Of a stretch of 64,000 nt of DNA, positions 20,401 to 61,673 are shown piece after piece. Under the pieces are notes generated by a model. It was not told where the DNA came from, searched no databases, and saw only the letters and a list, made by a program, of their open reading frames with translations. The position numbers were made by a program, and so were the translations under genes. The DNA lies in assembly GCA_022113835.1 (NCBI GenBank), contig JAILWY010000015.1, positions 7,230,501 to 7,294,500 on the forward strand, written 5' to 3'. Numbering within the stretch: position 1 is the stretch's first letter; every line of letters starts with the position of its first letter. The stretch is from Atopsyche davidsoni (Eukaryota; Arthropoda; Insecta; Trichoptera; Hydrobiosidae).

Positions 20401-21028
20401 ACGTAATGCGTTCGCCGCGCTCGGCACTTTTTTTATTTACTGCAAGTCCGCGTTATTTTGGAATGCGCTTAGTCGCTCATTGCAGACGCGATTTGGAAAG
20501 GAGTACCGGGAACGCCGCAATTGTTAAAAAAATCACAAGTAGACGGACCGTGGACGCGCGCTTCGCTCTAGATTATCATCACCTTTCGATAAATCGATCG
20601 ATACGTTTTCGCAATAAAATAATGGGTTCGGTCAGGGCGGAGTAATGAACCGGGCGGAATTCGCTGCGTCTGGTGATTTCAATAACAATAGTTAAGGGAT
20701 CGGAGGAGGAGTGGTCGCGCTCGGGGCGGCGGGGACTCGCGGCGGGCGTCGGGGCCGGCAAGGGCGGGAGGGCGCAAGGGCGGGGGCGCGGATCGGACCT
20801 CCGCCCCGCCGGTGACAATACGCTCGCATTTGCATCGGCAGAGTGTGCGATCGTGCCGGGCGATAATGTCGCCGGGAGGAGGCGGCGGCGGGCGGCGGGC
20901 GGCGGGCGGAGCGGGCGCGGGCGGCGGGCGGCCGGGCCGGCGGGCGGCGGCGGGCGCGCGCACAGTCGGCGCTACAGGGTCGCGCGCACCGGTCGCCCGA
21001 TCTCGTGCGGACTACTTTCTCTCGCCGC

Positions 21029-21168
21029 GCATTCCTCCGCCGGCCCCGCCGCGCGATTGGCCGAGCGCCGTGACGTCACGCACTATAATGAGCTATCCAA
21101 CATGGCCGTGTAGCTAGTTTCGCGTGTGCCAGTTCCTATTCGTTTTGAATGGATTTAATCAGTGAAAT
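21029..21168 (+). promoter_or_regulatory. kibra core promoter candidate
   Basis: Within 140 bp upstream of the start codon lie GCATTCC (21029-21035), a reversed CCAAT box (ATTGG 21056-21060), a consensus CRE (TGACGTCA 21071-21078), a TATA-like ACTATAATG (from 21082) and a YY1/Pho-like CATGGCCG (21101-21108). The exact start of transcription cannot be read from sequence alone. Confidence 0.55.
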
Positions 21169-21296
21169 ATGCCAAGGAGAAGAAATGGGGAGATACCCTT
21201 ACCCGACGGTTGGGATTTCGCGAGGGACTACGATGGAAAACTTTACTTTATCGACCACAACAGCAAGAAAACGACGTGGATCGACCCGAGAGACAG
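21169..21296 (+). CDS. kibra: kibra coding exon 1 (WW domain 1)
   Basis: ATG at 21169 in the context GTGAAATATGCC; it encodes [20 protein letters not shown] and the rest of WW1 through DPRD. It ends at AG with donor GTAGGT, phase 2. It lies wholly inside the CpG island. Confidence 0.96.
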
Positions 21297-24200
21297 GTAG
21301 GTTCGAGTGCGCGAGCGTGTTCACCCCGCGGGGCCCCGCGTCAAAACTCCGCATTCCGGAGACGTTTCGCGCGGTCGCGGCGGCCCGGGACCCCGCCGGG
21401 GCCCCGCGGGGCTCCGGGGGCCCGCCGGGACCCGTCCCGGGAGCGCCGGGGCCCGCGCGGACTCCGCGTTCCCGTTGTTTATGTCCAAATGTGAAAAACA
21501 AATCGCCCGCCAGCGCGGAGGTGCCGCCCTCGCTCCGGAGGCGCGCGAGTCGGGTCGGCCGATTTCCCGCGGCATTCCTCGCCCGCATTTCGGGAGCGAC
21601 GAGCGGGAACGGTCGCCTCGGCGGGGAGGGGCGCGGCGGCCCGAGCCCCGCGGCGGTGACGGGTCGGAAGTGCCCCCGTCGGGGACCCGCGGCCCGCGTT
21701 CCTCGCGAGGCCCGCGTCGCTCGGACGCCGCTCGACGGCGCGACCGACTCGCGCGCTGAACGTTCTCTCCCGGCCGACGATTTCGGGAATGCCGGCCCTC
21801 GATCGCGGTCTCCGTCGACGCGGCGAGGACGTCGAGCCCCTCGGAACGCGAGTCGGGGGAAGTCGAGAGACTTCCGAGAGTCGGACCGACGCTCGAGGCG
21901 TTCGCGGGTCGAGACGTCTCGAGACGGGCGATATCGCGGATCGAGTTTCGGCAGGCGCGCCCGTCGGCGGAGAGCCCTCCGCGGGTCGGGACGCGCGGCC
22001 CCCCCGACCGATTCGTTTCGGGACGACCCGCTCGAGTCGTCTCCTCGCGACTCGACCTTGCCGACGTTTTCGTCGCGATAACGATCGCGGCCGGCTCCGG
22101 CGAGGCCGGGACGATCCCGGGTCGCGGGCGAGCGGGTCCGTCGATCGCGAATCTCCGAGTCGATATTCCGCATTCCCCCAGGGCGGGGAGCGGCGGAATC
22201 GATTTTCCGAAAATCGCGAGCGCTCGACCTTGACATCTCCTCCGCCGTTCCGCGGGCGTAAATATTACCGTACCGCATTCCAGGACTGAAATATTTCCCG
22301 GCGCGCTCGCCTCCCCGGAGCGACTCCGACGGAAACCGTCCGGCGCCCGATTCGTTTTTTTCAGGAGTCGAACGCTCTCTTTGGGACCCTTCGGGTCCGT
22401 GGTTGCCGATTTGACGACCTCCTCGGCCCTCCGACTCTCGTCTGTCGCGGATCGCCGGCGCTCGCGATCGTTATCCTTGCGCAAATGCCGCAGCGCGATT
22501 TCTCGTCGATATCCTTTCGACACGCTCAAATTCCAAAATGTGTGAAATACTTTCTAAAAAAGCGCCACCCACCGCATTTTGACGTCAAGACGAGCGACTT
22601 TTTTTGCACAAAATGCTCCTTGCAATTAAAACATGATAAATAGCCTCAAATTAATAGTAGCCGAATGAGAAAACGCTCCGCCTCAGTAGTAGTCCGCGGT
22701 GCCGATATTGGCACTCCGCGATTTTTTTCGCAGCAGAAAATTCATTCAAAAATAGTTTGGGGCTATGATTGCGCTGGCTTTTTATTAGCATCCGAAGGCA
22801 TTTTGAAATGCGGGTCTTGTTGCGCCCCTCGCAGAGCGTCCTCGGCGGCGGTGGCGGTGGCGGTAGAAGCAGCCGGGAATGCGGGCGGCCTGGCCGACCC
22901 GAAGCACCTGTTGAGCGCCGCCCTCCGCTCCCCGGCTCATCGTCGTCCGCAGCATATTTTTTGTGCATTCTTAGAATTCCTATGATGTTTTGACTAAGCA
23001 TTTTTCTGCTTCAGTAGTATTACATAATCACAGCATTTCATTGTAATTATACGTTTGAGCGTAGTATTTTTTAAAACACGATTTTTCTTCATATTCCCCG
23101 CGAGCGGGGCACGATCTGAGGCTGTATTTTGAGAAAAGGGAAGTTGAGTAACATTGCATTGCTATCCCCGTTATCTTCAAATAGTATCGATAAAATATCG
23201 CCACTACCCTTGCCGGTCGAGTTGTTGACACCGACCCGAGCCCCGCAAGGAGTCGGCGTGCTTAAAATTTTCTCAAAAACGATTTAATTTGTTGCGAGTG
23301 CTAATTGTGTTTGTGTCGCAATTTGAGCGAAATATCGGCGGGGGCATTGCCGGCGAGTGGTGGTGAGCCGCGCGTACGCGATCCAAAGCTCGGATAGTGG
23401 TTATGAATTAGTCTTGTTCACGTGATGGCATTCAGCTGTTGAAACTCGGCCCGGCCGCCGTGCCCACATACAATTTGCAATAAAAATTACTAGTCCGATA
23501 TGTAGTGACGTGAGAATATGTTTTGAATGCGTCAAGCTATACCCGGATTCTACGCAAATTCCTTACCAATGCACATGTTTTTGCCGATGTTTGTACACGA
23601 GGCGTAGATTTTTTTTTACAACTCGCTACGTGTTGTTTAGTATCACTTTTTTTGGAATGCATATTATTATTTTTTTTTTTTTTAAATATAATTTTATCTA
23701 GCGTGCTTATTTTTTATACGAATGCATATATAAACAATAAATAATAACACCTAGTGACATTTGAATTTATGTGTATACATTTTTTTTAAATTTAAAAACA
23801 ACACCAAATAATCCCATAAAGGCATCTCGAAACTTTCAATCTGTCGATGCCTTTTTAGGGCGATAGAGCTGCAACCGATAGTGATAAAATAGTATTCTAT
23901 ATAAAATGTGTAGGTTTAATTGACTCCTCAAATTTTATTCTACATTATATATACGTTCAAACCGAGTACCGTGCCCAGAGGGTTAGATGAAAGTGTGGGC
24001 AAAATGAGCCTTGTTTGGCTATCACTTATAAAAATTAAATTCTCCATTAAGCCGCTTCGTGTTGAAATCTAGTTAAGTTCTCAACAGGCATCTTAATAAT
24101 ACAATACAAGCCATCCAAATAATATTAGATATAACATACCTTTCTTACTACCGGACATACTTTTAAATTTATAAAATCCGGCAAGTATACCCAAAACACT

Positions 24201-27200
24201 GAGGAGATCAGAGATCAAGGCATAGATCCGAATTGTAATGAAATAATTATTGTCTTTGTTGTTTTGCCTTTTATAGCAAAATCCATTGGCAGGTATATCT
24301 ATTAATGATAGTTATTTATTTGTTGCCCAGAAATTTGCTTCCTTAAGGGGAGGAGGAGAACGTAATAACAAAACCCTTCACAAAAACGATTCGTTACATA
24401 TAATAATTTTGCATATTTTTGGTCCATTGTTTCTGGTTGCGGGCACTCCTCGCTCGTCGTCTCCTGCAGTCCTCCGTCCTGGTCGAGGATCCTCGTCCAC
24501 GGGCATGTCCGGCGTGCTTCCTCGACCTCGGCTCTCGCCTAATTTCTCTTTCGGGCATTCCGAGCTAAATTATGGCGATATGCATGTTGTGCGCTTCGAC
24601 GATTCCGCTATTTTTTTTTTTTTGCAGATACGCGATTTATTTGCCCACAGTTGAATATTATTGCACATCCATAAATTCCGAATAGGTACTCGATTATAAT
24701 TTGTTTTATTGCATTCTTACAGTAGTTGTGGTTTGCAAAAAAAAACCTATACCCACTTTGGTTGTTCTTCGAATGCCGAAATTGCTATACACACATTATC
24801 TCGAGAGCCTTGGTCTAATTTTAATGGAATGATGGCTATTATATAGTTAATTAGATTATATTATCTCTGCAGATAAAATACCTCCGCGGATAGACATCTG
24901 GTCGTCGATTGACATTGATTCAGACGGTGAGTTATTGAATAAGAATTGCTTAGTTGTTAATAATCGTGATTACTATTATCGACCACTTCGTTCTCGTTTA
25001 TCAATGCTTGTTATAAAATGGGTGTAATTTTAAATTGTTTTATCATGTGAGATAATCGCTCAGGATATTAAAAGAAGTATCTTACGCAGGTGACAGTGCG
25101 GATTTCACTCAAGCGACCAGATAGATTTTTTAAAATTTAGTAGTAAAATATCGACGTGTAGGTTTTTTGCGGTGCATATTAAATATACAACCTCTTTTTT
25201 AAATGAGAATGACACGTGTGAAGTAAATCGATTCCGGGCAACGGTGGTTGCCGGTGTCATCGGCTATTTGAGCCACTCCTTGTAGTCTCTGAGGCTCGCT
25301 TTCTGGAGACGCTTGGTGAACGAGTGTCTCCGCGACTTGCAAGGTCAGCTCCGCAATTGATGATGGGGTAAAGTTCCACATTCCTCAAACTGTTTTTTTA
25401 ATTTTTTTTTATGATATCGCAAACAAACCGAACACGCTAAGTGACACCGCATGTCATTCTTCCTAAATCGAGGTTTTATGACATAATATTAAAATAAGCT
25501 TGCCTCAACGAACGATGGTAAAAATATATTTGACAATAAACAAACAATATTTAATTTTCTATACAAACAATATTTAACATCTATACAGGGTTTATGTGTA
25601 TAAGTTTTAGTTTAGTTTTACTTTAGAAAGATGAAAAACTGAATCAACATACCCTTTGCTATAGCGATCTAATGATTCTTTCCTGTTTTGGATGATATTA
25701 TAACGTTTTAAAACATGAATTACTCAAATTTGATTTTAGGATCGATCGTCAGATTGACGACTATCAATCGATTAAACAGCTGGATATCTGCAATTTACCC
25801 GCGTTGAATAATTTATTACCTTGCTTCGTATGGTTTATTGCATAAGTGTATATTTGTATGATTGTATGAATTAAATATATATATATTTTTAAATGTATTG
25901 CTTAACCTTAACTTTGAATGTTGTTTGGTTTTTGTTCTTGATTAAAAAAGTTTAAATAAATATTATTATTTTATACATAGAGTTTGACAAATCGTGTTAC
26001 AATAGTAATGCAGTCGAGGTGTATATCGATAAGATATTTTGTACAAGTGCACTATCGAAAACTCAGTGCGTTGAATGTCGCAAACGAATTATTCTCGGAC
26101 CATTAAATTATCACATCAGAGTTGTTTGCACCGAGCGACTGGGCTCCTACCGGTTTTCGGCGCCTCTCGGCTACCCCCAGGGTGGAGCCAGCCGCTGGCC
26201 CACTGCCGCCGAATTAGGAAATAATGCGTCATTGTTGTTATTTCCATTTACGCGAAGCGTCCAAACTTTTACTCGACATATCCGAAGGCGTCACGTCGGG
26301 GGGGCCGCTCGTTGTCACTCCACGTCACCGGAGACGGTGCATTTGCATACGGTGACGTCAGGCTCGGCCTCCGTTTGGGGACGCATTTTTTTCCGTCGCG
26401 CTATTAATAATGAGGACGGCACGCCCGGTGTGATTCGGTGATCTGGTGATTTGGCGATTATTGCGCTTATATTGTGATGCCTCCCGTGGCACCTCCACAC
26501 GTGACGCGGCCCGCGCGGCGACCTTGGTCGTTCGCAATAAACGGACGGAATGTGTCCTTACCGGAGATTACTCATGCCGAATTGATGGATTATCGCGTTC
26601 GGCCCGCGGCGACATTTTTGGCAAATTTGTTTATTTAACGTGGCTCTATCCCCCGAGCCACGCCGCAAGCTATTTCTACGGTCAGCTTTGCATAATTATG
26701 TTTGTGACCATACAACGCTTTGGAATACAATTCAGTTTTAATTTGGAATTTATTGGGATGCTTGAATTCCCGCTTATCTTTATCAGACTCTGCTTTTATT
26801 TTTGATTGTGTCTGGAGCGACGGCAATCCCGCAGAGCCATTTCTCCAGCTGGGCAACTTTACGCGCAGATTGTTATATTGGAATGGAGCTGTTTTTTGGG
26901 TGTCGGCGAGTAATGGTCGCGAATCAATCTGCCTGTAGTTTTCGGTGAATTGAATGTTCGGCGGCATCTGCAGCGGTGCGCCGGCGGAGCGACAGGCGGC
27001 GCTGCCGGTGCGCAGAGCTCTCCCCACTCCCCTCCCGTGGCCCCCCCCTCCTCCGCCCCCCGCCCCTCGCGCAGGAATGCCGGGCGAGGCGGGAGGGGGG
27101 GGGGGGGACCGGTCCGACGACTTTTCCATGAGAAAAATGCAAATGCCCGAGCGGCCGGTCCGGCGGAGCGCCGCGCCGCGAGTGCGCCGGGGCCGCGGGG

Positions 27201-30200
27201 CACGGCTTCCGCCCGAATGTCACTCGTCGCGGCCGGGGAGACCGAGCTAACCTCGCCTGACCTAACCCAACCCCGACGTTCCGCCTCACTCGCCGCCGCC
27301 CCGCGCACCGTACACCATCCGAGATCTGCACTGCAAACCGTATAAAAATGTTCAACATCAGCAGCACCTTCCGTACTAGCTTTTAAAAATGCCAAGGCGT
27401 CGCTCCCCACTCCTACATATTGCCCGCTGAAGCTTTCGCGTCGCTTTGTACTGTATCAATAAATTACTTCAAATTAATACCGGACAAAACACTATACTCC
27501 GAGCTGTTCTTATTCGTTAAAATTGACCGTTCAGTGTTGCCGTTTCGCTACCCTGTACGCTGACAAATTAAATAATTATTTCTAAAACTAAATGGATGAA
27601 TCTGTTGCAGGCTTTGCTAAAAAAAAATAGCTCAGTCGGCTTCAGGAGAATTTCCGAGGCGCGATACCCGGCCCCTCTGCGGAGTGACATTTTTTCTAGG
27701 AATTAAGTATGCGTTTGTTTTTTTATCGCTGTGAATAATGGTCGAGTAATTTTATTAATGAGTGCACGCGAAAGTGCATTCACAATTAGTCGCTCGACAT
27801 GCACGCGGTCGTTATTGACCGTCTTTGGAATATGTTGAAGAATTAGTCATGCAAATATATATTTTTTATCGGACGTCAGTCGCTCGAATCGGAGACCGTT
27901 CTCGAGAGACGAGGCGGCGATTTGCGAGCGCGGAGCGAGCATCCGCCGGCAGGGACGGCGACCGTCGGGCGACCGGAACGGGAAACATAGTAGTTTACTA
28001 AATATCATCATTGAATATTTCATAATCCCCGCTCGAGGCTCGGTCCCGCGAGGAAAGACGGCGACCATAGATTGTTGAGTAAAAATTCCGAAAAATCCAC
28101 TCAAATATTTAGTGTATTGTGTGAAGACCGCTGGACGGGTGTCGCAATCCACAACTACCGCACGAATAAAAATAGTTTTTTCACTTGTTCAAAAATGACA
28201 CTGGGTGGAAGGGGTATTTTTTTTTTGAGTCCCTCGCGGGTGGAAGTTTCAGCAAGGTGCAGCTCGCCAGTAGCCCCGCGTGCGTGCAATTTCTCCGCAC
28301 ATTCTCCCGGCCGGAGCCCTCGCGGGGCGCCGCATTCCTGGCGGTGCCGAATCTCCGAGTCGCGCTGCGTCACCTGCGTGCTGCGTGCCGGGACGCTCGG
28401 CCCGACCCGATGTGGCGCTTTTAATCATCAAACTGACCCCCGTCTTCCTGATATAACCGCGGTGTACTCAGGCTCGGGCTCCGAAAGACCATTTTGTGAT
28501 TTGAGTCTGAGCTTTACCCTTGCGGTTCGTCTCGATGGTGGCGGTTGTCCCTTTGCGCGGGTGCGGCGGCGGGGACGTGTCGGCACGCGGGCGTCTGTTT
28601 TGGCAGGGAATCCCCAGTGTGAGGCCGACGTGTGCCCGGAATCGCAAATCGTCGGAGCTGCCGATCGACGGCGAGGACTTCGGTCTCGCTCGGCATTCCG
28701 GCGATACCGAAAGGAGCGCTTGCTCGCGCTGAAATCACCGATTCCATTTTCCGGAACGACCCCTCCCTCCGTTCGTTTGAACTTAAATTTAATTTTAGTA
28801 ATCGCTAGTGTTTTTTTATTTTTTTGATGACACCCCCAACAGTTACGATATTTTGACGCAAGTCAATAGATTAGACAGGTTTAAATTCTTGTGTTGTTTT
28901 CTGCAGAGCCCGCTTTTTGTATTATGAGCACCGGCGTTGTTCGTATTTCTCTCTGTTTACTCCCAGTCGCCGTCCCGCGACAGCGATGCGAGATGATTAT
29001 ACTGTATACACTGAAATCATGCCACACTCCGTATGTATCTTTACTAAACACCCGGCGAGTCGAGGGAAGATAACGGAACCGCGTCATATTTGAGACAGAT
29101 TTGTTGACACCCGCGTGGACGGTATCTTTTGTACGGCTCGAGTATACGGTTTCGTTTATTTTGTGAACCCTCAAATTTCCCCGTCCGGGGCTAATTCCCT
29201 TCACCTGGTACTGTCCGGCGCAGTCCTGCTCGGTTTAGCGGTGTGACAGTTCCCCGTGTCGGGTAGCTTTCGAATTTCACAAACCCATCGTCCTCGGGCG
29301 TCCTCTCGACTTTGCTGCAACGCGCGATCACCGATTTGTTCCGATTATTGTGATATACTTGAGCACGAAACATTGTTTCGCGTATTTATATTTTCTGTTT
29401 TATATACTGCAGTAGCATTAGCATTGAATATCGGTTGTTTTGATTCTCTATTGATTTTAATATAAGAATCAAATATAACTCTTGGGTGGTCTTATATAAA
29501 CAACTAGCCACTTTATTTGATTGCAGTGTATGTGTATTTATATCAGATTGAGCGGTTAATATTGAATAGTATTAGCATAAATAATAATTTTAAATCTTCT
29601 ACTGTGTTAGATTTTCGTAATCCGTGGAGGCTTTGTAACCGGGTGTGATTTTGTAGAGCTTGCCAAAGTTCGGTCTGCGCGGGGATGGGACGTCTCCCGA
29701 GACCCACCCACCCGTGGGCTGCTGCGCGGTGACCTTGGGGCCGGCACGTCTTCTCTCTCGCACGCGAGACAACTCAAATATCATTCGGCATATGAAATTA
29801 CGGTAAAACTAAACACGTTAGGATATAACCCAAGCCGGGCACGCCCGCCGGCGCTGGTACACTTGCGGGGCCTCGCGTGCCGGCCTCGCGCTCGGGAGCG
29901 CCATCGCCATCGTCATCGTCATCACCATCGCCATCGCCGGCCACCTCGGGCCCGCGCTCGTCTCCCTGTGCACCTCCAAGGATCGAACCCGCCGGCCGAC
30001 TCGTGTACGCGGCGCACGCGAAACGACGGCAGAACGCCGGGAAAGTTGGCGTTAAATTATTCAAACGAACGTCAGATCTTTCTGGCGTGATTTTTTGTCA
30101 AATAAAATGCGACAAAAATACGTTGAGTCAGTATATATTTTGTTATGAACTGATAACCCCCTTTTGTGAGTGATACTATAATTTCTGGAACGCTTACAAT

Positions 30201-33200
30201 GAGCGCGCTGATATCTCGCCTAATTCAGTGCAGAGCAGTGTCTTAACAATATTTGTTATTATTTTGATAACGTGGAAACGCACATCTGTTTAGTATTTCA
30301 TACTGCGCGAGCAAATGAATTATCGTGCACGGAGGTGCTCCCATCCGAAACCTGGGATGCTGCAAGGATACCCGGGCAGATTGGCTCCATTGTGTGCAGA
30401 GCATTTACTCGTCCCAGCCCGGCTCCGAAATTACTCCGCCACTTGCGGCGGCCGGTCGTCCGATTGGCCTGCAGCTTTGATACGCGAAATCTAGCATTGT
30501 TAAGGCTGTGGTCAAAATTATAAATCTAAAACCCCCTACCCCCGCTGCGATGCGACTGACAGCCGAACGGTAGCTAGCCGGTAGCATCCTCTTTTTTGTT
30601 TGGGCTAAAATATTAAAGACGCTAATGGATATTAAAAAAAAATATTGATGTATATTTTGAAATCATTATGTTTGTTACACTACGAAACTCAATTGCATCA
30701 TGTTAAAAAGATAGTTTGTTCATTTCAATGGATACTTTTGTGTTTAATATTTTGTTAAAATACACAGCATATTTCATTTACGGTTTAAAAAACCTTCGAT
30801 AAAATTTATAGTTATCACTTGTAAGATACCTTAAGATCGGTTTATCATTATATATTTGTACCATTATACAAACATAACCCCACCGTAACGAATTAATACA
30901 ATACTATAAAATTGACCAAGCAAATATTAATATTTAATTTAAACGTGTTTGTAACTATTCCCCTTCTCCGTGCAACTCCGGCCGACGATGCGGGCTCAGC
31001 GGTATGCTTGCGCAGAAAGCCGCAAGTGAAATGTCACCCGCTCGCTATCTGAGGTTTGCTATTGCGAGGAGCCGGGGAAAACTCCTCGGCCAGACCTCTG
31101 GCGATCCGCGGCGGTTGGATCATCCGACACCCGTCACCGATGTTGACAGAGGCGGCCACTTGGTATTGTTCTCATTATCGAATGCTTTAGCAGCCGATTA
31201 ATTTTATGTATGTGATGCCTTTTTGCAAATTCGCGATGGTTTGTGAATATGGCCATGTCGATCCCTACTTAGAGCCCAACAGGAGGGCGATCGCGAACTC
31301 GTGGACTGGATTACTTTGCATGACATTAATTACACGACTGCGAGGCCATGACAGCAAATTGACGTGCACTGGTGTCGTTTTTCGGTAGAGATTGAACCAA
31401 CACTGCCTTCTGGGTGGAGAAGAGCACCGTCGTATGCAACATCCAAATCAAAATATTTTTCGTACCACCACCCTTGATGTAAAGTTTTGGACAGTAAATT
31501 CCACACTCGTATGCAATTATAAATTTTACAAAGGTTCTCGAGAAGTTTCCACGTATAGTACCTACAATAGCAAACCATTATTTATGTAATTAATGTTTAC
31601 CAATACCACCATTAGTGCGGTATTGTCGTAATTCAATGTAAACATTTAGTAACCCATTTGTGCCCGTGCCTTAATTTACATGCAGATTAAGTAAACGAGC
31701 ATTACAATAATTAACATAATATTTAGGTGGGTTAAGTAGCATTTATGCTGGCATAATTGTCCTATAGTTTAAAATTTACTATTTTTTTTATTTTTAAATG
31801 CTCTAGTTAATATTATTCAAGAATCCATATGGCAGAAAGTTTCAGTTTGAGTCTCATTCTGGGATTGAAAACTCAAATCCCTTTTGATCGTTTTTGTGTT
31901 CCTCTTATATTTTTTGCAGCGGGGGGAGGTCAAATCAATCCAATCGGTATCGGAAGAAGTAAATATATTTCACGGAATCGATAGTCGTTCAATCTCAATT
32001 CCGCAAACAAATAGCTAATGAATGAACGCGCTTCGTACAAAAAAAAAAAAAACAAAAGCTTCAGTCACGGCGCGCCATTATGCAGCTAATTTATTGACAT
32101 CTTTGAATTGAGAGTCCGGCAGTGACGGGCGGGAATCGCGGTCCGTAGTAGACTGAGGTCTGAATGGAGTTTTTTTCTGGCGTATTTCAGCTTAGCCGAA
32201 AAGAGACTGGCGGCTCGCCGCCGGGGCCGGGAATGCGGCCGGAATCCTGCCGCGTTACGCAACCGAGCCATCCTCCGAGCTCGCCAACCCGAGCTCGCCA
32301 ACCCGCGCGGAACACCGGCCAAGGCGCTGACTTTGCCCGCCCGCGATACTCCAATCTACCTCCACTCCCCCCCCCCCCCCCCCCGATCGTTCGGAAACAT
32401 TGCCTAAGGTTGTGATTAAGTTGAACTAAAATGGCAATTCAAATCTTTCCATTACACCGGTAACATTCTTTGCAGTCAATTGAGCAATTTTAATTGTAAT
32501 ATTTTCGCTCGCGCAGTTGCGTTTCATTCATAGTATTTCATTTTTAAGCAAACACGTTGTCGTATTGATTTCTCATTGATCCGAGAAGCGCGGACCGGAG
32601 CGACAGCGATAGTTCTATCGCGAAACGTGCGAGATTGTTTACGCCCAGCTGTCGACAACATTCTGGGGTTTTTCCGACTCTAGTCAACAAACTGCGCGCG
32701 AGGAGATCCTCTCGGGGGTCGCGGGCCGCATTCCTCGCCGTTTGTCAATTTCGCCTCGCACCGAGCAGCGCCGGCGTCACGTGCCGCCACGTCACGTCAC
32801 GTCACCGTTTCCCGCCGGTCGGCAAATAGAAAGGCAAGTGAGCGCAGTAAAGCGATGGCAGATATTTTTACGTTCCCCTATCATCGAGAATTGTATTTTG
32901 GTCAAAGAGAATATGCTGGTGTATCGTTCATTATTATTTACCTTTGAATTTGATATTTCATACTCGGTAACTAAACTGAAAAAAACTAGAAAAGGTTTGC
33001 GCATTGGGATGTAAATATGCCGTTTATGTGGTGTTCCATCGTCAGCATGTCCGAATGCTTTTCGGAAACGATCGACCCGGTTCGCTCGTGTCGTGCATTG
33101 GCACGCCAGTGCGAGTATTTGCTATTGTTTATTTTTTTTTCCTGAATAAATTAATTTTCTCCGCCAGCTCTGATATCGTTTGCATAGTTCCCATCGTTTG

Positions 33201-36200
33201 GAATGCGTCTACTCGCAATTAGCAGCGGAATTTTCTAATCGGGATGCTCAATTGTAAAGCATTTCACAAATTGACGCGAACATATCCGCAGCGATCTATT
33301 TGCACTCACTGCCCGACCTGGTGATGAAGCCAAATACGCTCCGATGCGATTTCTGGGGGGGGGCGTTTCGTTGTGGATATTTTTTAATGACCAAAATGTC
33401 ATAATTTCATTTTAAAATGCAAAAACTAAAATCATCGGCTTGTCTTTTTGTGTGTATCGATTAATATGGTATTGACTCTATGATCGTAATATGCAGGGTG
33501 ATATCTAACTATTCTTACAAAAAAATACCTGATAACTCCCAAATGATAACAGTAGGTAGGAAATTTAATTAAATTCATTGTTTTTCGTAATCAAACTACC
33601 TAAATAATCAATCTTTTTGATAGAGAATACTTGGTGAAATTCCATCTTAATATTTTAAATAAAATACTTAGTGATTTTTCCACATGTTAATTTATCAAAC
33701 TCACATTACTCTTAAATTACCCCTTACCACCTGACAACCATTCTCTCTCTTTTTAACAACATCTCCCTTTAACAATTGTTTACTTAATTGCTTGTTATTA
33801 TATAAATTCTCACTCAGTTCGACAATGCCAACGCGAAAGGTTGGCGAAACTGGTCACCAATAAAAATTAGCACGTGGAAAAATAACTCCAGTATTTTATT
33901 TATAATATTACGTCAATTTGACATTCTCATCGAATAAAAGCGTAACAATTCACAAACAAAACAGTAACGGGAATCTGACGCGTAGGCTCAGGTATCTAGC
34001 ATAAATTGCCATAAATTTACAACAGCCGTGCTTTTTTTCGCGTCGCTTTGTGAAAGGCTCAGTGCAGCGGGCGCACAACTGACAATCGACAGGTAACCGG
34101 TGACCATTGGCGTCTTCTTTTGCATTGCTTACGTTGGCAAAGACAACTGCTTACCCATTCGGTTGTTTCGCAGCGGGTGGAACTCAAGTTCAACAATCTC
34201 CGCTGCGTGCGCAAAGCTCTGCATTTCCTCACCGCGGTGAACTCTGCCGGCTGCTGTTTCCCCGGAGCGTCCGACTTTTAGTACAACGCAAATTATTTTA
34301 TTTCACAAGTCATTTTGTATTACTCCACAAGAGGAGATGTTTAGGCGTATATGTTTTTTTAAATTATTTCGATGAAACTCTAAGTCAGTGCAGTATCCGT
34401 CCTCATTCGAATGCGCCCTCGGTTTTGAGGCGAGAGTTCACCGGTGACCGCTCCACATTTGCCGGCAAGGAAGCTCCTGGGTCTCTCTCGGCCTGGCGCA
34501 ACAAAGACGGCGCATTAAGGCACGGCCTGTCATAGGAAGACTATGCGGCCGGCGGGCCTTTGTCCCCGCCGCGTGCCGGGCCCGCGTTTGGCCCCCGCGC
34601 CCCCGCCCCGTCTATTCGTGGAATGCACCGGCGCAGGAATGCCGGGCGCTCTCGCGGTCTTGTTTACCGCCGGCCAGATGGAGCGCCGGCCTGACCCGCC
34701 GGTCCTTTATCTTCTGTTGACCTCGGCGGGCCGGGATGCTGGGGTTGCGCCCGTTGCGCCCGTCCGTTGTCACCGGGCTGGCGCTGTTCGTCTCTCTCGA
34801 GTTTGTTCAATCGTCTCCTCGGTCCCCGATAATCCCCGGTTGACTTGATCAGTGTTCCACCTTGTGGGTTCATGCCCCATCTTTGGCCTTCAGAGACACC
34901 AACTGGAGAGCCAATGCCGACAGGAGGGCCTGAAGTCAGCGGCGAGACACCCACAATTGATAAAGTCACTGGATAGCTTATTAAAGAGTGTCATCGGAAC
35001 CATAAAGAAGATAAACCAGCACAATTTCGGTTGACTAGTTTGGAAAGTTTCCCCAAATTGTGATGACAAACCTTGTACATAACAAGCAAGGTACCAAACC
35101 TATAAAACCCCGGATGACTTTCTGCATCTCGGTGCTTTGTCAATCAATTTAAAAAGCTTTATAATGTATATATATCGCCGAGTGCATCGTTAATCAATTC
35201 TCAAATGTTCATATTAATGAACATGTGTTGTAGATTTTTTAAAATAGAGTACGCGTGACAGTAATTTTCCTTTATGCATTGAATAGAGTCAAGTGTGTTA
35301 ATTGTGTCTCGATTTGCAGCGCTCAATTGCAAGCTGCTCGTGGTACTTCAGTACTGTCGCCTATTCATATGCAAGTAAATCGTTTTTCAATACGAGTATA
35401 CCTCACTCACCATAGAGTACCATTAGAATCCCACTGTGTTGTGCGTATCTTGACTATTTGTGGATTGTGGCTCGCCCGCGGATGGGAACTCCGGCCGATA
35501 CCATTCTATCGCGTATCGGCGCCGGGCTTAATTGCCGGGGAGTCTCGATTATGAATGCATTTATTCCGCCAGCGTTGCATTGTGCGGCGCGCCCGGCCCG
35601 CCCCGCACTTCCTAATTATCACATCCTCTGTTCCTGGCCAGATTCCATTCTCACGCTGGCGGACGGAGACGAGCAGGTTCCGCTGAAGGGTGGAACCCGC
35701 GGCCCCGAGAAAAAACCGGCCAGCCCTACAAGGCTCGCCAGCGCCGTCGTGCCGGGCTCTAGTCGTAGGTCACGAATGGGGATAGCTAGTATTTACTGTA
35801 AAAAATGGGGGAGACTTCTATAAAAATGATGAATAATCGAAGCGCAGTGGTGTGCAGTCTCCTTATAAGTGATAAAGCGTTGAATGTAAATATGCATTTT
35901 TCCACATATTAAAAAAAAAAAAAAAACCATTTGTTACTTTATTTTCAGCGAAATCGATAACGAAAGATGCAAACTTAATTATATTAATAGACTTTCTCAT
36001 TCAAGTACTCATCGTCTTTTATTAGAATTGAATGCATATAATTGAAATACTATTCACCTATGACACCTGAGAATAAATGCGGTACCGTCAATACGCTTTA
36101 CAAATACTTATTTTAAAATTCTGTAAGCATGGTTTAACCGTGTATCATTTCTAGTTGTATGAAGGAACGGCTTTAATTAAATTAAGTTGGTCTATGGACA

Positions 36201-50372: not shown

Positions 50373-51520
50373 GTAGGACCTTTACCGACTACCGTTGACG
50401 GTGATATTGACGAACAAAATCAGAACCTCAACTTGGCTGAATATAATAATTCTCAATTTACACCCTATGAATTAATCGGTGGTTGTAATTATGCTAATGC
50501 AAGGGCTCACCGCAGCACACCCCTGTGCAATATATTACTGTTTTGAAAAAACAGCTTTAAAGACCCGCTTTTTTATGGTTATCAGTCTGAAATTTAGATA
50601 ACACTATTAAAAATTGTTTAATTTAACCACCAATGATTAATTAGCAAAATTACGTTTAAGCAACATATGTGATGTATTGGACAGGTTAGCTGTCACTGCT
50701 TATTTTAATTGATCTTAAAGAATTCGGGTAGTATCTGGCTTAGCACCAATAATAGCAGATTTATGTAGCAGTTTAACATCTCGGTATTATGTTTATATGT
50801 TTTAAAAGGTAAAAAAATCGATCAACGCAGCCACATTATGAAATGATACAAAGTGGTTTTCTCTTACTGTTGCCAACTGCCAACCCGACCATAAATATAA
50901 GTTTTGTTATTTAGATTTGTCACACTTTAAAATCAAGGTGAAACTAGAAATAATATGTTATTGTAAGAACGATAACTACCACACAAGGGTGGAGTTAGTA
51001 ATGAAGTGTTGTACTTCTACTATAAATTGTGAAAACACACGTGTCTCACCACTAAAGAATGTGACCGGAATTTTATCTTTAAAGTCTTGCACACGTGCAA
51101 GTGATAAACGTCTTTGTTTAAAAGCCGATCTCGATAATTTTGTATAATTTAGATAACTGAAGTTAGTTTTATGATGGGCGTGGACACGGATTTTTTTATA
51201 GTTTTCGTTGATTGTAAAATATAATTAAGATAACTGAGCGTGTGAACTTGTAAACATGTTCTTCTTTATGATTACTAATATTCGCGAACTTTGGCGAATT
51301 CGTAAATTAACCCAGACGAAATCAATCGGCTGCTTTAAGCCTTCGTTAAAGAGAAGAATACTTGGCGGCCGTCACCGACACTTACACAACATACTTTATT
51401 ATCACGCACGAAAATTACAGATATACACAATTAATCACTCATTAAGGACTATATATCCGTAATCCATGCTTTTGGTTGATATTTTGCCTAAAATTTACCG
51501 CACCAATTACAAAAAAAGAT

Positions 51521-52225: not shown

Positions 52226-55200
52226 GCATTCCCGGCGTGCATACATGGATTGCATGCCCCGGGTATCTCACACTTTGATTGGTTTACTTTTTCAACGGAT
52301 GTTCATATTTTAACAACGCAATATTTTATGAGTTGGAAATCAAAATCATCAATCAAGTGTCTGAAATTATTTTTTTAAACAACTTGCAATGGCATCGCAT
52401 TAGCCAATAGCGACAATGAATTTTGATGTTATTTATTTTTAAAAAAATGCAATGCACTGTCAATACAAATCGCTTGCCGCAGAACTGAAGCAGGGACTAC
52501 AAAAAATATTATTAATTTTAATATCAAACACGTTACTCAAAAAAGCGGGATCAAGAGGTGGACTTGGTCTCCATGAAACGGTGAATTTTTAACGTCGCGC
52601 ATACGGCACGAATGCTACTCGCCTCGCTCTGAGGTCGCGGCTCGTCTGGCACATTTCTATCGTATTCAAATAAACGGCGGTGTCGACACCTCCGTTACAA
52701 AATCGGCACCGCCGCGATCGTGAATCTTGTCACCTGCGCGACGCACGCTCGGCCAAAATCTAACGTGACTTTCGCTTTTGATATCGGGGACTGCCATGAC
52801 ATCCTGCGAGCGCATCCGGCGGGCCGCGGGCTCTTCCCACGCCGGGGGCGCCGGAAACGGCCCAGGTGTGCCCCAACTCCCAATCGGAGCCCCGGACGTG
52901 GCTCCCCGGAGCTCGTTCCCCGGGACGCAGGCACCGGCGAGGCGTCAGTCTCCCGGCAGACAATCATTTGGATGACACCCGAGACGCAGCTGGCCTACTC
53001 TTATCCGAGCTCGGATGCTTCAGTGGAATAAATATTAGGGGAAGATTTTATACAATGCCAAACATAATTCATTTACTTGATGTATTTGAACATAGTTTTA
53101 TAATTTATATTATAGTTCGATACCGTGAGGCTTGTGGTAGAGGCATTGTGATTATTAATTTTACTCGGTTGAAATTTCTACCACGAAAAGAAAGGAGTCA
53201 TGACTAACGCCACGTTGAAGCGGCACTCGGCGGGCACGTCCTAATACAATTTTATTGTTCGCGTGTGCATGAGTACTACACGCACCGTAGTCCAGTGAAA
53301 ACACCGCCGGTCATTCCACGTCGGTCCCGGTGCTTCTGGATCGTGGGAACCCGTCCATCCATTATCCAAACCGCACAGCCGTCCACGGCAGCCGACAGTG
53401 TATAGTGTATAATATTCCCAGAAGTCTTCATCGAGGAGCGTCTATCCCGAGGATTGTCTGCGTGCTTTTAATTTTCAATGTCGAAGTTGTGAGGATTTTT
53501 TGAGGAGTCAACAATAGATAGTGATATTGGTGCATTATGTGTGACTTGTCTCTTTAAACCAGGGTGCACTCTAGAAACCGCAATGGATGAAAGAAAAGAA
53601 ATCTTTTGAATTTTTATTTTCTTACCAATACAGATTTTAATATTAATACCCTGCTTTATGATTAATGAAGATAAATAAATAAATTTATTAAAATAACACA
53701 ATTACTACAATTGGAAATAATGATTTTTTTTTTAATTATTTCTTTTTAAAAATTTAAATAAAGACAATATGTCTGCTATTGCAAGGATATTTCACCTAAA
53801 CCAACCACTAGTATATTTTTATTTTAGATACAACCTAAACACATAAATATGTATAAACATACATATTAAGAACCGACGCGCACGCAGATTTTTTTCTCAG
53901 AATCGATCTGAATCTCACAAATGGTAATCTGGGCGCGAAGTGAGTGCCCGATTCCAAAAAAAGCAATTTAAAATGTTTTGAACAGTACACGCCTTAAATC
54001 TTTTATCTACGACCTGTCTTCCTCCTCGGTGATTTCTTCGAATCGTTCATAAATCATGAATCATACCTTCTTTTAATTCGGATGAACAATCGTTTCCAGG
54101 ATATCTTTCATTATTGCGAACGATAATATTTACTATCTTTTCAATTGTCACGAACGTGAAAAAAATAATTTAAAAAAGCACTACTGCTAATCTTAATCTT
54201 GTGAGTGTGAAATTTTATTACTCCGAATTCAAAAGAAGCAGGCGTCTGGAACCGGCGGTCGTGAGAGCGAGCCTCGGAGCAATAAATTAACCTTTAAATC
54301 GACACACATACCGCGGAGTAAAATTCCAGTAGCCGATAACACGTACCGAGCGCAGACGGAAAACCTGCATTCCCAGATCCCCGCCCCCCGCGCCGCGCAC
54401 CGCGGGGCCTTAAAAAATAAAAATTATTTATCATACGCGAGCGGCCGGACGTCTACATTTTAATTCACCATTAGCCGGCCGTAAAGTACCCCGCGCCCCG
54501 CAGCCCCGCAGCCCCGCAGCCCCGCAGTCCCGCCGCCCTCGGGAGCGTCCTGCGGGGTGGGGGCGGTGGCGGTGGCGTTCGCGCTAACCTCAGAGCTCGT
54601 GGCTACTTTTTGCTTACATCACATTTTCATTGTTGCACGCACGTGCGCAGCCATTATCTAAGGATGATAGTTCAATTGATAGAATTCGAGTTGTCTGCTT
54701 CCGCGTGTTTCAGCGCAAGCATGCGAGGAATCTTTGAAATCGTTCGCTTCCGCAACTGCATTGCGCATCCAACTGCACCGCTGCAGGCTGTGTCCCACTG
54801 AAATACGTACATTTTTAATATCATCAAACGTATAAATATTTATATATTTAAAAATAGTGTTCCACTGTGAGATCATCTGTCATCTGATCGATCGACGGGA
54901 AGGTGTAGCCTCGCACCTGTCGTTTGTCACACCTTTGATGTGATAATTCTAACGCTCGTTCGCGCTAACACATGGCTTTTGTATTGCCTTATATAACGCG
55001 GCATTGAAATCACAATCACACCGTGACACACGAGCACGCGTAGTGGCGCATAGCATCTTCGGCGAGTGACCCTGGGAACTATCAAACTGCTCTGGACGGT
55101 ATTCCGATCACGCTCCCGACGACGACGGACTGCTTCTGATGATGAAGAGAATTCGCTGCCCAAAGGGAACTAGCTCTCTCAAGAAAACTTCTTGCAGGTC

Positions 55201-55977
55201 TGGCCATTTTCAAAACTATTTTGACAGCACTGCTAGTGGTCCCACAAAAGTCGTCACGATATGCTAAATTAGAAATTGCATCAGAATAAAAAAAAGTCAA
55301 TGTAGGAAGTGTTTCTCCGTGGAATCTCGTCTCCAAGGTTTCAATAAATTACTTATTTCGTTCAACAATGCTATGAATTAATGAGGTCGGTTCGGGCGCC
55401 CGTCGCGTTTTCGCAAAACGAATCCTAAATAATAGCGTTTGTTTATCATAATGAACTGACACATAAACAAATACATAAAAAAAATAATGTATACAAACAC
55501 GCGGCGCGCAAACGTTTGAGGGCCACAGGCTCCGGAATGCACGGAGAAGGTTGCGCAGTGCCCTTGTGCGGCCTCAGAGACCACCAATCCGTGGCCCGCG
55601 ATGATCGTATTTATTTTATAAATTGTATTTTTTACAACATGCTAATTTAGTCGGGCTTAATTCACGGATCTCCAATTGGAAGCGGTCGCCCGGGAACAGG
55701 TTTTGAACCACGCTTGCACGGTGTAGTATATTTATGATTACCTCGCGAGAGCCGCATCCGCGCGTATGCGTATTCGTATGATATTTCCTCCCTCCGCCCG
55801 CCCAGTTTGGTTTCGAATTGCCCTTGGAAAACCTTTTTGGCCCAAAAGTGCGGCCTTCGAGCACTACTTGTTTACAAACAGACGGCTCGCCGTGGCGGCG
55901 GGTCGGATAAAAAGCATCGCTAGGATTATTTGCGATGTCCACATGCGCATAAATTAAAGCCTTTTTGTGCGCATTCC
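52226..55977. promoter_or_regulatory. TEAD/Scalloped-type motif group 6
   Basis: Heptamers at 52226, 54367, 55534 and 55971, with a weaker TCATTCCA at 53311. Each sits in or next to a CpG-rich patch of intron 3. Confidence 0.45.
54498..54530. repeat. 8-bp tandem repeat GCAGCCCC
   Basis: Four copies in a row in a CpG-rich patch of kibra intron 3, followed by diverged C-rich sequence and a GGGGTGGGGGCGGTGGCGG tract. No coding role. Confidence 0.7.
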
Positions 55978-58654
55978 TCGGCAGTTGTTAAAAGGTTGAC
56001 GCGCCGGTGTTTGTATTGTGCTCGCGCAAAAACGACCCGTGCCATACTGCGCGACCCGGCGGAAACTTCTGCCGTTCTGCTGAATGTATTGCGGCGATAT
56101 GTTGCGAGTCAATCGCCACTCGGATGTGTTGACTCGTTCATTTTTTTTTAACAATTAAATACACATTCCAAACAGCACGATAACAAAAATATTTATCCGC
56201 TTTTACCAATAAATGATATTTTTTGTACAAGGAATGTTTTATTGTGATTAGCCAAATAATATCGCGTTCGCCTCTCTCACTCGCGTTCAACAAACAGTCT
56301 ATCGTTTTGTAACCCTTTGAAAGATAAGCATAAAACATTTTTACTAAAAATATAGTCATTCAGAATGAAATCATTACCTTGGCGTTCATTTGGATCGAGT
56401 ATAGCAAAGAATGTGGCTAATTACCCCCGGTAGGTGTCGAGGTGGCCCGGAGGCGGCGCCGAGGATGCAGCAATGTAAAAAGAAGGGAGCGAACTGGAGA
56501 GGAGCGCGCGCCGAGACTGCTTTGTGATGATCTTAACGTATTATTTATCATGCACCGAATTCCACAGCGGTGACCGAAAACCACACGAGAATTCACAAAT
56601 ATATTTTTTACTGCGCCAACATTTACCACACAGCCCACTTAAAAAAAATACAAAAAAAAAAATAATACGCGGCGATCCCTCGCTATCCGCGAGGCTCCGT
56701 TTCGCGGACATGCAAAAAAATAAAATAACAAGGACTGTGTAAAAGTTTGAAAAGTTATAGTGCGAATAGAAAATGAAATAATTTGGGCAGTATAAATATT
56801 TTATTTCAGAGTGCACGCTGCACTTATTTATACTTGCCAGTAGCTTACACATAAGCTAGATATATTGCAATAACGTAGTCATTGGCCACAATTATGTTTC
56901 ATTTTTATTGCGGAATTTTTTTAGGCCGTCGTGTGTGCTGCAATTTTTCAATATTTCGCTCTGCTAGATTTGTATGCATTATTCAAGAGACACTTGAAAG
57001 TATTTCTTTCAAAGAATGCCTCGAAAACTGTAATCACGCCTGTAATGACTGTAATGTGGACGCGCGTCCAAAAAGGATCACCTCTTACATTTGGATTGTT
57101 AAACCACTACACTGGGATATCAATCTATCATTTTCTTTTCCAGTGAACAAAGCATTGTCGGTTAAATTATGTGGGATTCTTTGAATTCCTTTTTTTTTTT
57201 TTTACTAATAATACTTGGTTACCAAATGTACTTCAATTGACCCACGGTTGTTTGCCTTATTTGCTCATTCACATGCAAAGCTTGTACGAGAGGTAACATG
57301 TAAGCCAGTCGTCTTATCCGGATTGGCATATTTTTGTACGTGTTCTTAGTGATGTCGACACCGCGGATAACAAGGGGTCATTCGTACATTGCTAAAAACA
57401 ATGCTTTGATAACACAATCAATCTTTAATGTTTTATTGTTATAAACAATATTTTGGATTTATAACGTGTTATATTAAAATTTCCAACTATTCTTTGATAA
57501 TTTCAGTGGGCGCTTATTTATATATATATTGTTACTTCTTGCCTAATGCCTCTTCTCAGAGGAGAATGGTGACCATCTCTCTGTACATATATTTTTACTA
57601 ATTTGGCTGTGATGGGTTAATTTCCCGATGCTTATTTTTCCTTGTATTTTGTTACAAGTGTGCACAATGGAATCCGCGGATAACGAGGGCCCGCCCTCGC
57701 TATCCCTCCCCCCGCCCCGGTCCATCTCCGCGAGCGTAATTATATGAAATTTGTTAGCCGCCGAATCAAACATCACACTCCTCCCCGCGGCCGCTTCTAG
57801 GAAGGCCCGCATCCCCGCATCCCCCGCATCCCCCTCATCCCCCGCCACGGGCCGCGACTCCCGCGGTAGCCGGGCGGGTGATTTATCGCGCAGGCTCCCC
57901 GGGCGACGAGCGGGTCCTCGCCTTGATTTATCTCCCTCGCGCTGCAGACTTCATCTGCGGGACCTCTCCGGCCCGACGCTGGGATTCGCGCGGTTTTTTG
58001 CTGCGACCCTCGTCTCCCGCGCCGGTTTCCTCTGTCACGGCGGGCACACTATCAATCGGGGGGGGTTCTTATTTTTCGGCTATTTTTTTTAATTCGGAGT
58101 GATTTATTAATTGTATTCTGAAATTGAGATTAACTGTTCAATTTAACGATAGGAAAGCTTCGAATTCCTCGGATCTGCTCCTCGCGCCTTCGGTGATGAC
58201 GTGCTAATGTAGGATCGCTCCTGCGATCTTGCGGTTTTTTTAACAATGGAAAAAATTCGATTGCCTTTTATTGTTTTTAAATATCATTGTATATGCTCGT
58301 CGGTAGCGGCGAGTGGGTTTTGGCGCAGAGAAAGCTTCTGTTCCATAGGACTCTCGAGTCAAATGTTCTCGAAAACCCACTGCTTTCTGTTTACAAAACA
58401 GTAGTAACTCGTGTCATAGAAGGTGGGACATCCCTGATGATGTCCTGCGCTGTCGTGATGTTTCTCCGAGATATTCTGTCAGTGCTGGACGAATAGAGGC
58501 TTCGTTCAGAAATTCCAACCGATCCATCATTTCCCGGAATGTTTCCTTGCACCGTTGCCTTTTTTTCACGATTTGCGTTGAAAAATAATGAACCATTCGG
58601 AACGCGATGCGAACGCGATGGAACATATTTCACTTACTAGTATTCCGAGGAGTT

Positions 58655-61600
58655 GGAATGCTAAAATTTTATCATAAATCTGGCTATGACGTATGTAGAT
58701 TCTCTTGCACATTTCCAAGATGCGAAAACAATTCAAATTCTTCACGAGTACTATGAAGACGGATATATTTTTTATGAAATATCATATTTTATTGGTATCA
58801 GAACGAAGCGACGCTTTTCATCGCCCGGGCGTGGATATCGCGGAGTCGCCGCGGTATTCCGTCCACAATCCTCATCGTCGCCCATTAATTATTGCCTACA
58901 CATAGTTCCGATTCCATTGTCTGCTGTATTATGAGGCGGTCCGAACACGCGCCCGGCCTTCTGGGTCAAGGCCAGGCGCGATCCTCGTCCAGCGCTCGTC
59001 GTCTTCTCGCATTCCGATGTCCAGGGAGTCGGAGAGCTTGCCCGCCCCGCGGCCGCTCGCCTCCGATCGACGGCCATTGGAAGTAATGTCCAATTAGCAA
59101 TAAGCAGAATTGCAAAACTGCGAGATAAACGCCGGCCGAGATGCCCATTGTTTGTGTACGCAACTGTTAATCTTACCACACGCCGAGCCGGAGGAATGCG
59201 CTAGAACAACACCCAGGATTACCAGCTATTAATACTGGACGGATTCTATATTCTGCCGGTATTTTATTTAAAGAAATACAAATGCGCACATACAGGGAGG
59301 TTTAAACATTTTGCAGGCGTGCATACCACCACATTTCAATAAATCTTGCGTTTAAATACTTTGATTCAATTCGGACCTATATTGGGTTTAAATTATATCC
59401 TAGTAATATTGATCGATAGTTTTTTGTGCATATGCTATAACGAATTTTTGCGTTTTGCATTTGTGTCTGGTTTTTTTCGAATAGCACGCATACAACGTTT
59501 TATTTCAAACTCGTGTTGAAGGAGTGATACACTGTAAAGACTCTAAAACAGGATGTATTCGTTCTTTCTCAGTGTAGTTTCCTTTTTTTTTTTATTTGAA
59601 ATCAGCGAGTTGAAGGTGTTTCCGATGCTCCAAAACACGACCTTCGAATAGGGACAATCTTAGTTCTCAGTGTCTAGTTACTTCGGTCACGCGATCCGAG
59701 CCTTCCCGGAACGTTCCCTAATGATCGTCCCTCCCCCGGTTCCTGGCTCCGTTTCCCTTCGCCGTAATCGCCGCCGTCCAAATTGCAAATTTCGGATCTT
59801 TCCTGGTCAACTTCGGGCACAAAAAACTGCCCGACCTTCGAAGGATGGGCCGGCCCCTGCCGCCCCGCGCAATGGAGGCGCATTCCTCGCGAGGAAAGCG
59901 GTCGGGGCCCCTCGAGCCCTCCTCCTCGCCCTGTGCTCCTCACCACCACAAAATCTACTCATTACCATTTATTGCAATATAAGATTCACGCTCGAACTCC
60001 GCTACTGGCGTGTATTTTATATATATTATATATATATATGAAGGCTGATTTCTTGGCGCCCCTTCCATTCTCGTTGTAAAATTTCTCTATTGTTTATTGA
60101 GTAAGAATAAATATTCCATTGTTTCTGTTTACTATGATAAGTGACCTTGTGCGTAGTTCACACCTGTTGCGTATGTCGTACACATATTTTACTTTACAAT
60201 AGCTTAACAAACAACTGTGTATTATAAAAATAAAAAGTCATTAAATTTTAGTATCAAATTTATGAACACCTTTGCTATTGTTTTTAATTAATACCATCAA
60301 TGTTGAATTAAATTGAAAATAAGCTGTCGGGAGCGAGATTGGTTTTACTGTTCTTCGTTTTGTGTAACCTTAGCTTCAGTGTGACTATTCAATAACGCCA
60401 AATCAAGTTATTAATGCATAAAAAATGTACAAAAAATTAAATTTAAATAATTTATAAAATATTAATGTTTTGTATCAGTTTATACTTGGTTCTCACATAT
60501 GAATATCGCAATGGCGAGTACGGTAGTCCGGGGTTCATGTGACGATATGCAAAGTGGAGCTCGTCCAAGGAATGCAGTTTGATAAAGTGTTATTTGTCCA
60601 TGTCGGGTCCAGCGGCTACCGAATTCGGAGCCGGCTACCTCGTATCCTAAATTCTACCTGACAACCACTCCGAGCACCCGCAATTAGGATTGTTAAATGC
60701 GTTCATTATTCAGATCCTAATACATATTTTTTTCCGTCTCAAGAGGATAGCATAACCTCACCAAGAGAGGCATCCGCCTAATAGAAAATATTCACTCAAA
60801 ACCGTGTTAGACTTTTGGGTGATTTTAAAATGTTATATCTTATTTTTGTCAAGACATTTTTTTGGTATACAAACCTTTACACGACTTGTTTAGATATAAA
60901 TTCGTGTTAACATCTGTTAAGTTGGATAGAATAACATGTAAAAATATATTGGCGTGTGGGGCTCGCACATCGCCCACTCGTAAAATTTTTATAATATTAT
61001 TGACAAATATTAAAATAATATGGTGTAAAGGAGATATATTTTTAGCTCAATTTCGTCGATATGTAACCCTTCATATAACAAAAAAAAAAAAACAGTTTTA
61101 CTAATGTTTACTTGTAAAACACGCATCACATTGTCATCCGAGCATTTAAATATATGTAAATGCTTTGAAAAAAAAAAAAAAAAAAAGCCGTCCACAACAA
61201 CCCGCGCATTATATCACGGCGCGATGCATCTCATGCTGCCTGGAAAAAATAATAAAAGTACAAAAGTATGTTTACGGCCACTATGAACGGGAAGCAAGCG
61301 GGTAACACCGGTGGCGCGTGCGACGGAGACAACCGCGCAACAGGCGCGCGGGTGCGAGCGGGACGGACAACGGGACGGACTGCTGCACGGCCAGAAGGGC
61401 CGAGTGGGTGTTTTGTGTTTTTCGATTATTATTTATACACACTCACGCATTTCTGTCGATACACCTCGTGATTGTATTTTTAGCGGGCAGCAATCCATAC
61501 CTGCTCAAAAACACTAGGCACACTGAATTTCAAGCTATATTAAATTCAAACTAACGTGTACAGCAGCATATATTCAGCACAGCTTTATTCCAAGTCAGGG

Positions 61601-61673
61601 TGTTCGCCCCGGGTGCGTGCGTGGCGTGGCTCGCGTGGCTCGCGTGGCTCGGCGGTGGGCGGCTGCGGAATGC
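58655..61673. promoter_or_regulatory. TEAD/Scalloped-type motif group 7
   Basis: Heptamers at 58655, 59009, 59193, 59880, 60569 and 61667, plus GGAATGT at 58536. Six exact copies in 3 kb make this the second densest group. The flanks vary while the seven bases stay fixed, which is what a protein-binding site rather than a copied repeat would look like. Confidence 0.52.
61606..61652. repeat. GTGGC/TCGCGTGGCT tandem repeat
   Basis: GTGCGTGCGTGG is followed by three copies of the 10-bp unit TCGCGTGGCT, just left of the heptamer at 61667. On the minus strand it translates to a His/Ala/Ser series that is an artefact of the repeat. Confidence 0.65.

Follow-up and report, generated by a model that had tools for sequence, protein, structure and literature searches.

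A cluster of GCATTCC heptamers bounded by the kibra gene of a caddisfly and its candidate role in Scalloped/Yorkie feedback

Background

Why should a single gene carry dozens of copies of one seven-base word, scattered from its promoter through its introns? The question is raised by the kibra locus of the caddisfly Atopsyche davidsoni. A stretch of 64,000 nucleotides of this locus (the window) is rich in GCATTCC, which contains the CATTCC core of sites for TEAD (Scalloped). The original prediction read these copies as a distributed enhancer through which Yorkie and Scalloped would drive the expression of their own inhibitor. It relied on kibra being a Yorkie target in Drosophila, and this is stated in PMC5029684 and PMC5345706.

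In this work we have analyzed the abundance, extent and surroundings of GCATTCC in kibra, the explanations by composition and by repeats, and the fit of the sites to TEAD/Scalloped.

Methods

Positions are those of the window. Extended coordinates continue for a further 40 kb downstream of it along the chromosome, and the 3' exons of kibra are placed roughly. Block dinucleotide shuffles, which preserve GC patches, were run with blocks of 100, 200, 500 and 1000 bases and 200 shuffles per size. The first same-genome control comprised 22 GC-rich places (68.4 kb) picked by an unrelated GC-rich pattern, blind to GCATTCC; these places come exclusively from the first 2.7 Mb of contig 1, and since they are unannotated some may be coding. 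The second control comprised 254 kb compared per local-GC bin, with L006, L007 and L023 omitted on account of overlaps and with masking of the sites that had served to select loci; it errs on the conservative side, part of it adjoining GCATTCC sites or pairs, and some of its patches may be coding. In the genome-wide search for close pairs the overlapping GCATTCC copies at C5:3987703 were scored as one place. Papers are cited by their PMC numbers.

Results and discussion

Identity of the gene and placement of the sites

Judged from its translated exons, the gene carrying the cluster is kibra. After manual joining, its exons 1-3 aligned over 103 residues with the solved KIBRA WW1-WW2 structure 6j68 (165 bits; the runner-up protein reached 101 bits) and gave two WW domain matches, in agreement with the gene call made originally. 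The division of the sites reported at the same time, with two before the start codon and 18, 7 and 10 in introns 1, 2 and 3, fits the exons as now placed (21169-21296, ~43.9-44.0 kb and ~50.3-50.5 kb; Table 1). Intron 3 extends beyond the window to ~76.6 kb, and 10 further GCATTCC sites precede exon 4, found at extended ~76.6 kb. Probable later exons reach ~87.5 kb, the later ones being placed by resemblance alone.

Table 1 Exons, GCATTCC sites and close site pairs of kibra in window coordinates
Feature	Position	Span	Strand	Remarks
Promoter/5' GCATTCC sites (n=2)	20460 (-), 21029 (+)	20460..21035		upstream of kibra ATG
kibra coding exon 1		21169..21296	+	start codon (ATG 21169) and first WW domain; donor GTAGGT next
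Intron 1 GCATTCC sites (n=18)	21351, 21572, 21786, 22170, 22275, 22876, 23654, 24555, 27074, 28332, 28693, 32230, 32728, 33200, 34620, 34636, 38557, 40562	21351..40568	both
GCATTCC same-direction pair, intron 1		34620..34642	-	gap 9
kibra exon 2		43923..44030	+	second WW domain; boundaries approximate
Intron 2 GCATTCC sites (n=7)	45036, 45064, 46997, 47063, 47072, 49038, 49348	45036..49354
GCATTCC same-direction pair, intron 2		45036..45070	-	gap 21
GCATTCC-CC-GCATTCC same-direction pair		47063..47078	+	TEAD double-motif geometry CATTCC-NNN-CATTCC (PMC4546604)
kibra exon 3		50260..50500	+	QLEDPRLEW...; boundaries approximate
Intron 3 GCATTCC sites inside the window (n=10)	52226, 54367, 55534, 55971, 58655, 59009, 59193, 59880, 60569, 61667	52226..61673

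Number of copies and extent of the cluster

The GCATTCC cluster, as observed, is real. GCATTCC and its reverse complement match the window exactly 38 times, with 37 of the matches at 20460-61673 and one at 10735, and this recount reproduces the numbers originally given. Whole-window dinucleotide shuffles (n=100) gave a mean of 8.8 copies and a maximum of 14, against the 38 present. It had been proposed that the count be held against dinucleotide shuffles keeping the GC patches; when this was done over 20001-62000, 5-6 copies were expected (means of 5.0-6.1 for the different block sizes, maximum 14) against 37. In the ranking of 7-mers under the 200-base null GCATTCC came second, with poly-A alone above it. 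The letters of GCATTCC can be permuted into 239 other CpG-free words, the most frequent of which has 11 copies, and the most frequent of all 420 permutations has 13, self-site-shifted versions of the word being excluded.

Twelve more sites lie past the window, the last at extended position 84100. Altogether extended positions 20301-88000 contain 49 copies, against one in the preceding 1-20300 and none in the following 88001-104000. Since the 49 sites run from 20460 to 84100 with one before and none after, the cluster starts at the promoter and stops inside the gene, and is thus bounded by kibra.

Composition and repeats as explanations

Across the whole genome (370,702,741 bp in 80 contigs) there are 25,219 copies of GCATTCC, one per 14.7 kb, and 11,286 copies of the same word read backwards, which served as a control word. 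A functionless accumulation in kibra could result from GC-rich, high-CpG patches or from biased gene conversion. Such an origin would agree with the rise of GCATTCC density with local GC within kibra, from 0.09 to 3.1 per kb, and with the abundance of GC patches in kibra relative to the sampled remainder of the genome. In GC-rich control DNA from elsewhere in the genome, however, the word is scarce. The first control held 4 copies in the 63.9 kb scored, against 37 in 41.8 kb of kibra, and at a GC content of at least 0.55 the figures were 1 in 9.7 kb and 22 in 8.4 kb, respectively. Against the second control, non-coding kibra (extended 20301-76590, 55.8 kb) contained 47 copies where 7.0 were expected from GC-matched bins (6.6 without pseudocounts), which gave GCATTCC the top kibra-versus-control score among all 7-mers, with an all-bin ratio of ~7. 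At a GC content of at least 0.55 there were 27 copies in 11.8 kb of kibra versus 3 in 15.7 kb of control (12-fold, p 1.4e-7), and kibra stood above control also at GC 0.35-0.45 (9 in 16.0 kb versus 5 in 75.3 kb). The equal density in GC-rich DNA that marks a generic GC/CpG-patch word was seen in neither control; an equal density in CpG-rich patches had been named as fatal to the feedback idea, which survives the comparison. The local shuffles with their 5-6 copies, and the permutations of equal letter content, which show no rise, speak against composition as well.

Some other words are also in excess over the GC-matched expectation in kibra, as a compositional origin would allow: ACTCCTC (15 versus 4.8), CGGTGAC (15 versus 6.0) and CGAGGAG (22 versus 11.2). 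The Homothorax-like TGACAG stood at 30 versus 23.6. All the shuffle-enriched words other than GCATTCC showed a weaker excess against this control, a few of them two- to threefold. The two same-genome controls largely reject the GC patches as the explanation, and we regard a compositional origin as improbable.

The other trivial source would be a dispersed repeat, or a local amplification, bearing GCATTCC. Certain 12-mers containing the word are indeed present two or three times in 20001-62000, with a maximum of three copies each, but the flanks of the 37 sites are unalignable, the 49 sites are divided between the strands (29 and 20), and what the sites share is essentially the 7-mer alone with mild flank preferences. 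The listing of the flanks shows no single repeat, as the original prediction had held from their copy-to-copy differences, and contradicts a dispersed repeat; we assign this origin a negligible probability.

Close pairs of sites in the genome

Same-direction pairs of GCATTCC within 30 bases number 102 genome-wide, and among the 100 listed five are in kibra, between C15:7265120 and 7298522, where 0.014 would be expected by area. Among the pairs listed, other 100-kb stretches hold at most two separate pairs each. Three 10-kb stretches at runner-up places (L043-L045) contain 2 to 4 sites, as against ~9 per 10 kb in kibra. Inverted GCATTCC pairs were found at 28 places genome-wide, none of them (0/28) in kibra. 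The bias towards the same direction (102 versus 28 inverted places) was dropped as evidence, the reversed-word control showing 16 versus 3.

Outside kibra, a triple GCATTCC with 1-base gaps is present at G000:C5:3987703-3987725 and is possibly a strong site. An inverted GCATTCC pair of 42 bases occurs in identical form at G000:C9:1114708-1114749 and 1119286-1119327, 4.6 kb from each other, probably through a local duplication.

Fit of the sites to TEAD/Scalloped

The over-representation of the CATTCC core that a TEAD/Scalloped cluster should display is present in kibra (47 versus 7.0, as above), and TEAD-like features extend to the spacing of pairs. The double motif CATTCC-NNN-CATTCC is enriched and functional for TEAD/YAP1 (PMC4546604). 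Genome-wide, 22 of the 100 listed (115 in all) same-direction RCATTCC pairs with gaps of 0-8 have the corresponding gap of 2, while the other eight gaps have 7-12 each (mean 9.75); the peak has p 0.0013 among the pairs listed and p 0.0026 when the kibra pair is left out. For GCATTCC-only pairs with gaps of 0-30, 9 of the 100 listed fall at gap 2 (p 0.005), and GG-type pairs with gaps of 0-8 contribute 9/33 at gap 2 among the pairs listed. Kibra itself has one dimer-spaced GCATTCC pair only, at 47063-47078. Mixed pairs at gap 2 among those listed are A-then-G in 8 cases and G-then-A in 1, against 20 and 17 at other gaps (p 0.07); A-then-G is the order in the mouse TEAD double motif ACATTCCTGGCATTCC (PMC12008814).

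The flanks follow the TEAD pattern too. In the TEAD sites CACATTCCTA and ACATTCCTG the heptamer is preceded by C and followed by A/T (PMC12008814), and the kibra sites show both preferences, with C at -1 in 29/49 versus G in 10, and A/T at +1 in 27/49 versus 41/147 at +2 to +4 (p 0.0009). A standard Scalloped DNA-binding domain is encoded in the same genome: manual joining of two exons gave a TEA domain with 80/81 aligned residues identical to TEAD4 (5gzb). The TEA exon of scalloped has a GCATTCC pair 3.5 kb upstream, and the Tondu exon of vestigial has an inverted pair 9.0 kb upstream; with 130 pair places in the genome, ~0.007 would be expected by area within 10 kb of a given gene, although developmental loci may have more. 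IAP genes (possible diap1) were located at seven distinct places: GCATTCC-GCATTCC pairs and inverted pairs were both absent within 10 kb (0/7), and one of the seven, in a tandem array on C5, had a mixed RCATTCC pair ~0.5 kb upstream. A tandem array of IAP (BIR) genes at G000:C5:4531077-4657175 has roughly a dozen members, in several of which one long frame encodes two BIR domains. AP-1 is a usual partner motif, and AP-1 words in kibra were at the number expected from shuffles (3 versus 3.0); CTCF, NRF1, ETS and E2F consensus words were at shuffle level.

The first position of the word does not follow TEAD. ACATTCC is the highest-affinity single TEAD site in mouse (PMC12008814), and a TEAD cluster should have a purine as its first base, with A accepted or preferred. 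In kibra only G is raised, with 9 copies of ACATTCC versus 5.7 expected (P 0.12). Composition alone would not hide ACATTCC, because control DNA at a GC content of at least 0.45 has 4 ACATTCC versus 10 GCATTCC. No neighbour of GCATTCC at one mismatch has more than 12 copies in 42 kb; in relative terms GCAGTCC rises most (8 versus 2.4-3.3). For a plain TEAD cluster, such a near-absence of an ACATTCC excess is unexpected.

The sites might accordingly belong to another DNA-binding protein, e.g. a zinc-finger protein, whose site is strictly GCATTCC (perhaps CGCATTCC), the likeness to TEAD being coincidental or partial. The strict G at the first position would suit such a factor, as would the lack of strong enrichment of the 1-mismatch neighbours and the C preceding the word in 29/49 sites. 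It would leave unexplained the genome-wide peak at the TEAD dimer spacing, to which the GG type contributes (9/33 at gap 2 among the pairs listed), the A/T at +1 and the pairs near sd and vg. We know of no insect factor with a strict GCATTCC site and consider this explanation rather unlikely. The identification of TEAD/Scalloped as the factor, made in the original prediction, is supported independently by the dimer spacing, by the flanks and by the pairs near sd and vg; ACATTCC, also bound by TEAD, shows little excess.

A candidate feedback on kibra

The GCATTCC sites probably form a gene-wide homotypic Scalloped (TEAD) cluster in a Scalloped/Yorkie feedback on kibra, a reading in which we place moderate confidence. 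Scalloped would bind the putative sites one by one and, in at least one place (the pair with TEAD spacing), as a cooperative dimer. Under low Hippo signalling Yorkie would pass into the nucleus and join Scalloped at the promoter and at numerous enhancers scattered over the introns, and Yorkie-Scalloped on kibra would lead to more kibra transcription. The Kibra protein would in turn activate the Hippo/Warts kinases, so that Yorkie would be pushed out of the nucleus and Hippo signalling restored. The many scattered sites would provide a graded negative feedback across many tissues, and would also allow the level of kibra to be tuned by Scalloped paired with Vestigial or with a repressor. The pathway may in this manner switch on its own brake via the whole gene and not via one short control element. 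A bolder proposal, which we put forward tentatively and with some doubt, is that the non-coding body of caddisfly kibra could be one distributed feedback device with ~50 sites of high specificity, its reader being either Scalloped in a context demanding GCATTCC over ACATTCC or an undescribed strict-GCATTCC factor. The distributed feedback enhancer originally predicted is partly supported: it withstood the GC-patch comparison and gained from spacing and flanks, whereas ACATTCC remained near expectation.

The feedback elements known for Yorkie-Scalloped in Drosophila are compact, in contrast to the 49 predicted sites over ~64 kb of one gene in caddisfly kibra. The likeness to the Drosophila negative feedback (expanded, Merlin, kibra, crumbs; warts) consists in the same gene, the same core motif of the factor and an equal predicted sign, the effector raising its own inhibitor (PMC5029684, PMC5345706). 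With homotypic, double-motif TEAD/YAP enhancers the locus shares the CATTCC core, the flanks and the same-direction 3-bp spacer; in TEAD/YAP sites A is tolerated or favoured as the first base, and the mammalian motifs stand inside single binding peaks, whereas in kibra the excess is of G only and spread gene-wide (PMC4546604, PMC12008814). The bantam wing enhancer likewise gathers several putative Sd sites in one target: when all seven were mutated most of the expression was lost, and mutation of fewer caused a subtler loss (PMC3764184). Unlike caddisfly kibra, bantam has its seven sites in one enhancer and a core, GGAATG, without the strict C; the word kibra is absent from the main text of that paper, a Drosophila Scalloped ChIP study (PMC3764184). 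The unusual traits here are the whole-gene spread and the strict G. No report of a gene-wide kibra cluster came up in full-text searches of the literature or in the portions consulted of PMC12008814, PMC3764184, PMC4546604, PMC6558396, PMC5029684 and PMC5345706. Should the proposed feedback be true, the strength of a growth-control feedback could be read from the genome and compared across insects, being gene-bounded and visible in raw sequence. It also makes testable the question why only G is found at the first position, given a Scalloped DNA-binding domain nearly identical to that of mammalian TEAD.

Other features of the locus

Two palindromes recur in the locus. TGACGTCA (CRE) is present five times, at 21071, 22580, 26353, 37939 and 44982 (0.5 in shuffles), and in non-coding kibra there are 6 copies versus 2.6 from the GC-matched control. 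TCTCGAGA is also present five times, at 21917, 24799, 27900, 31536 and 46633 (0.4 in shuffles; 5 versus 1.5 from the GC-matched control). GC-rich DNA of kibra intron 3 contains an open frame of ~550 amino acids (L041:7396-9057, C15), which may be an additional exon or a gene in its own right. The neighbouring FAM114A2-like gene has 52% identity over 73% of the query to a protein of another caddisfly, Arctopsyche grandis, the other 119 proteins among the matches listed having at most 45% identity. A 51/102-base tandem repeat occupies positions 42-263 at the start of the window.
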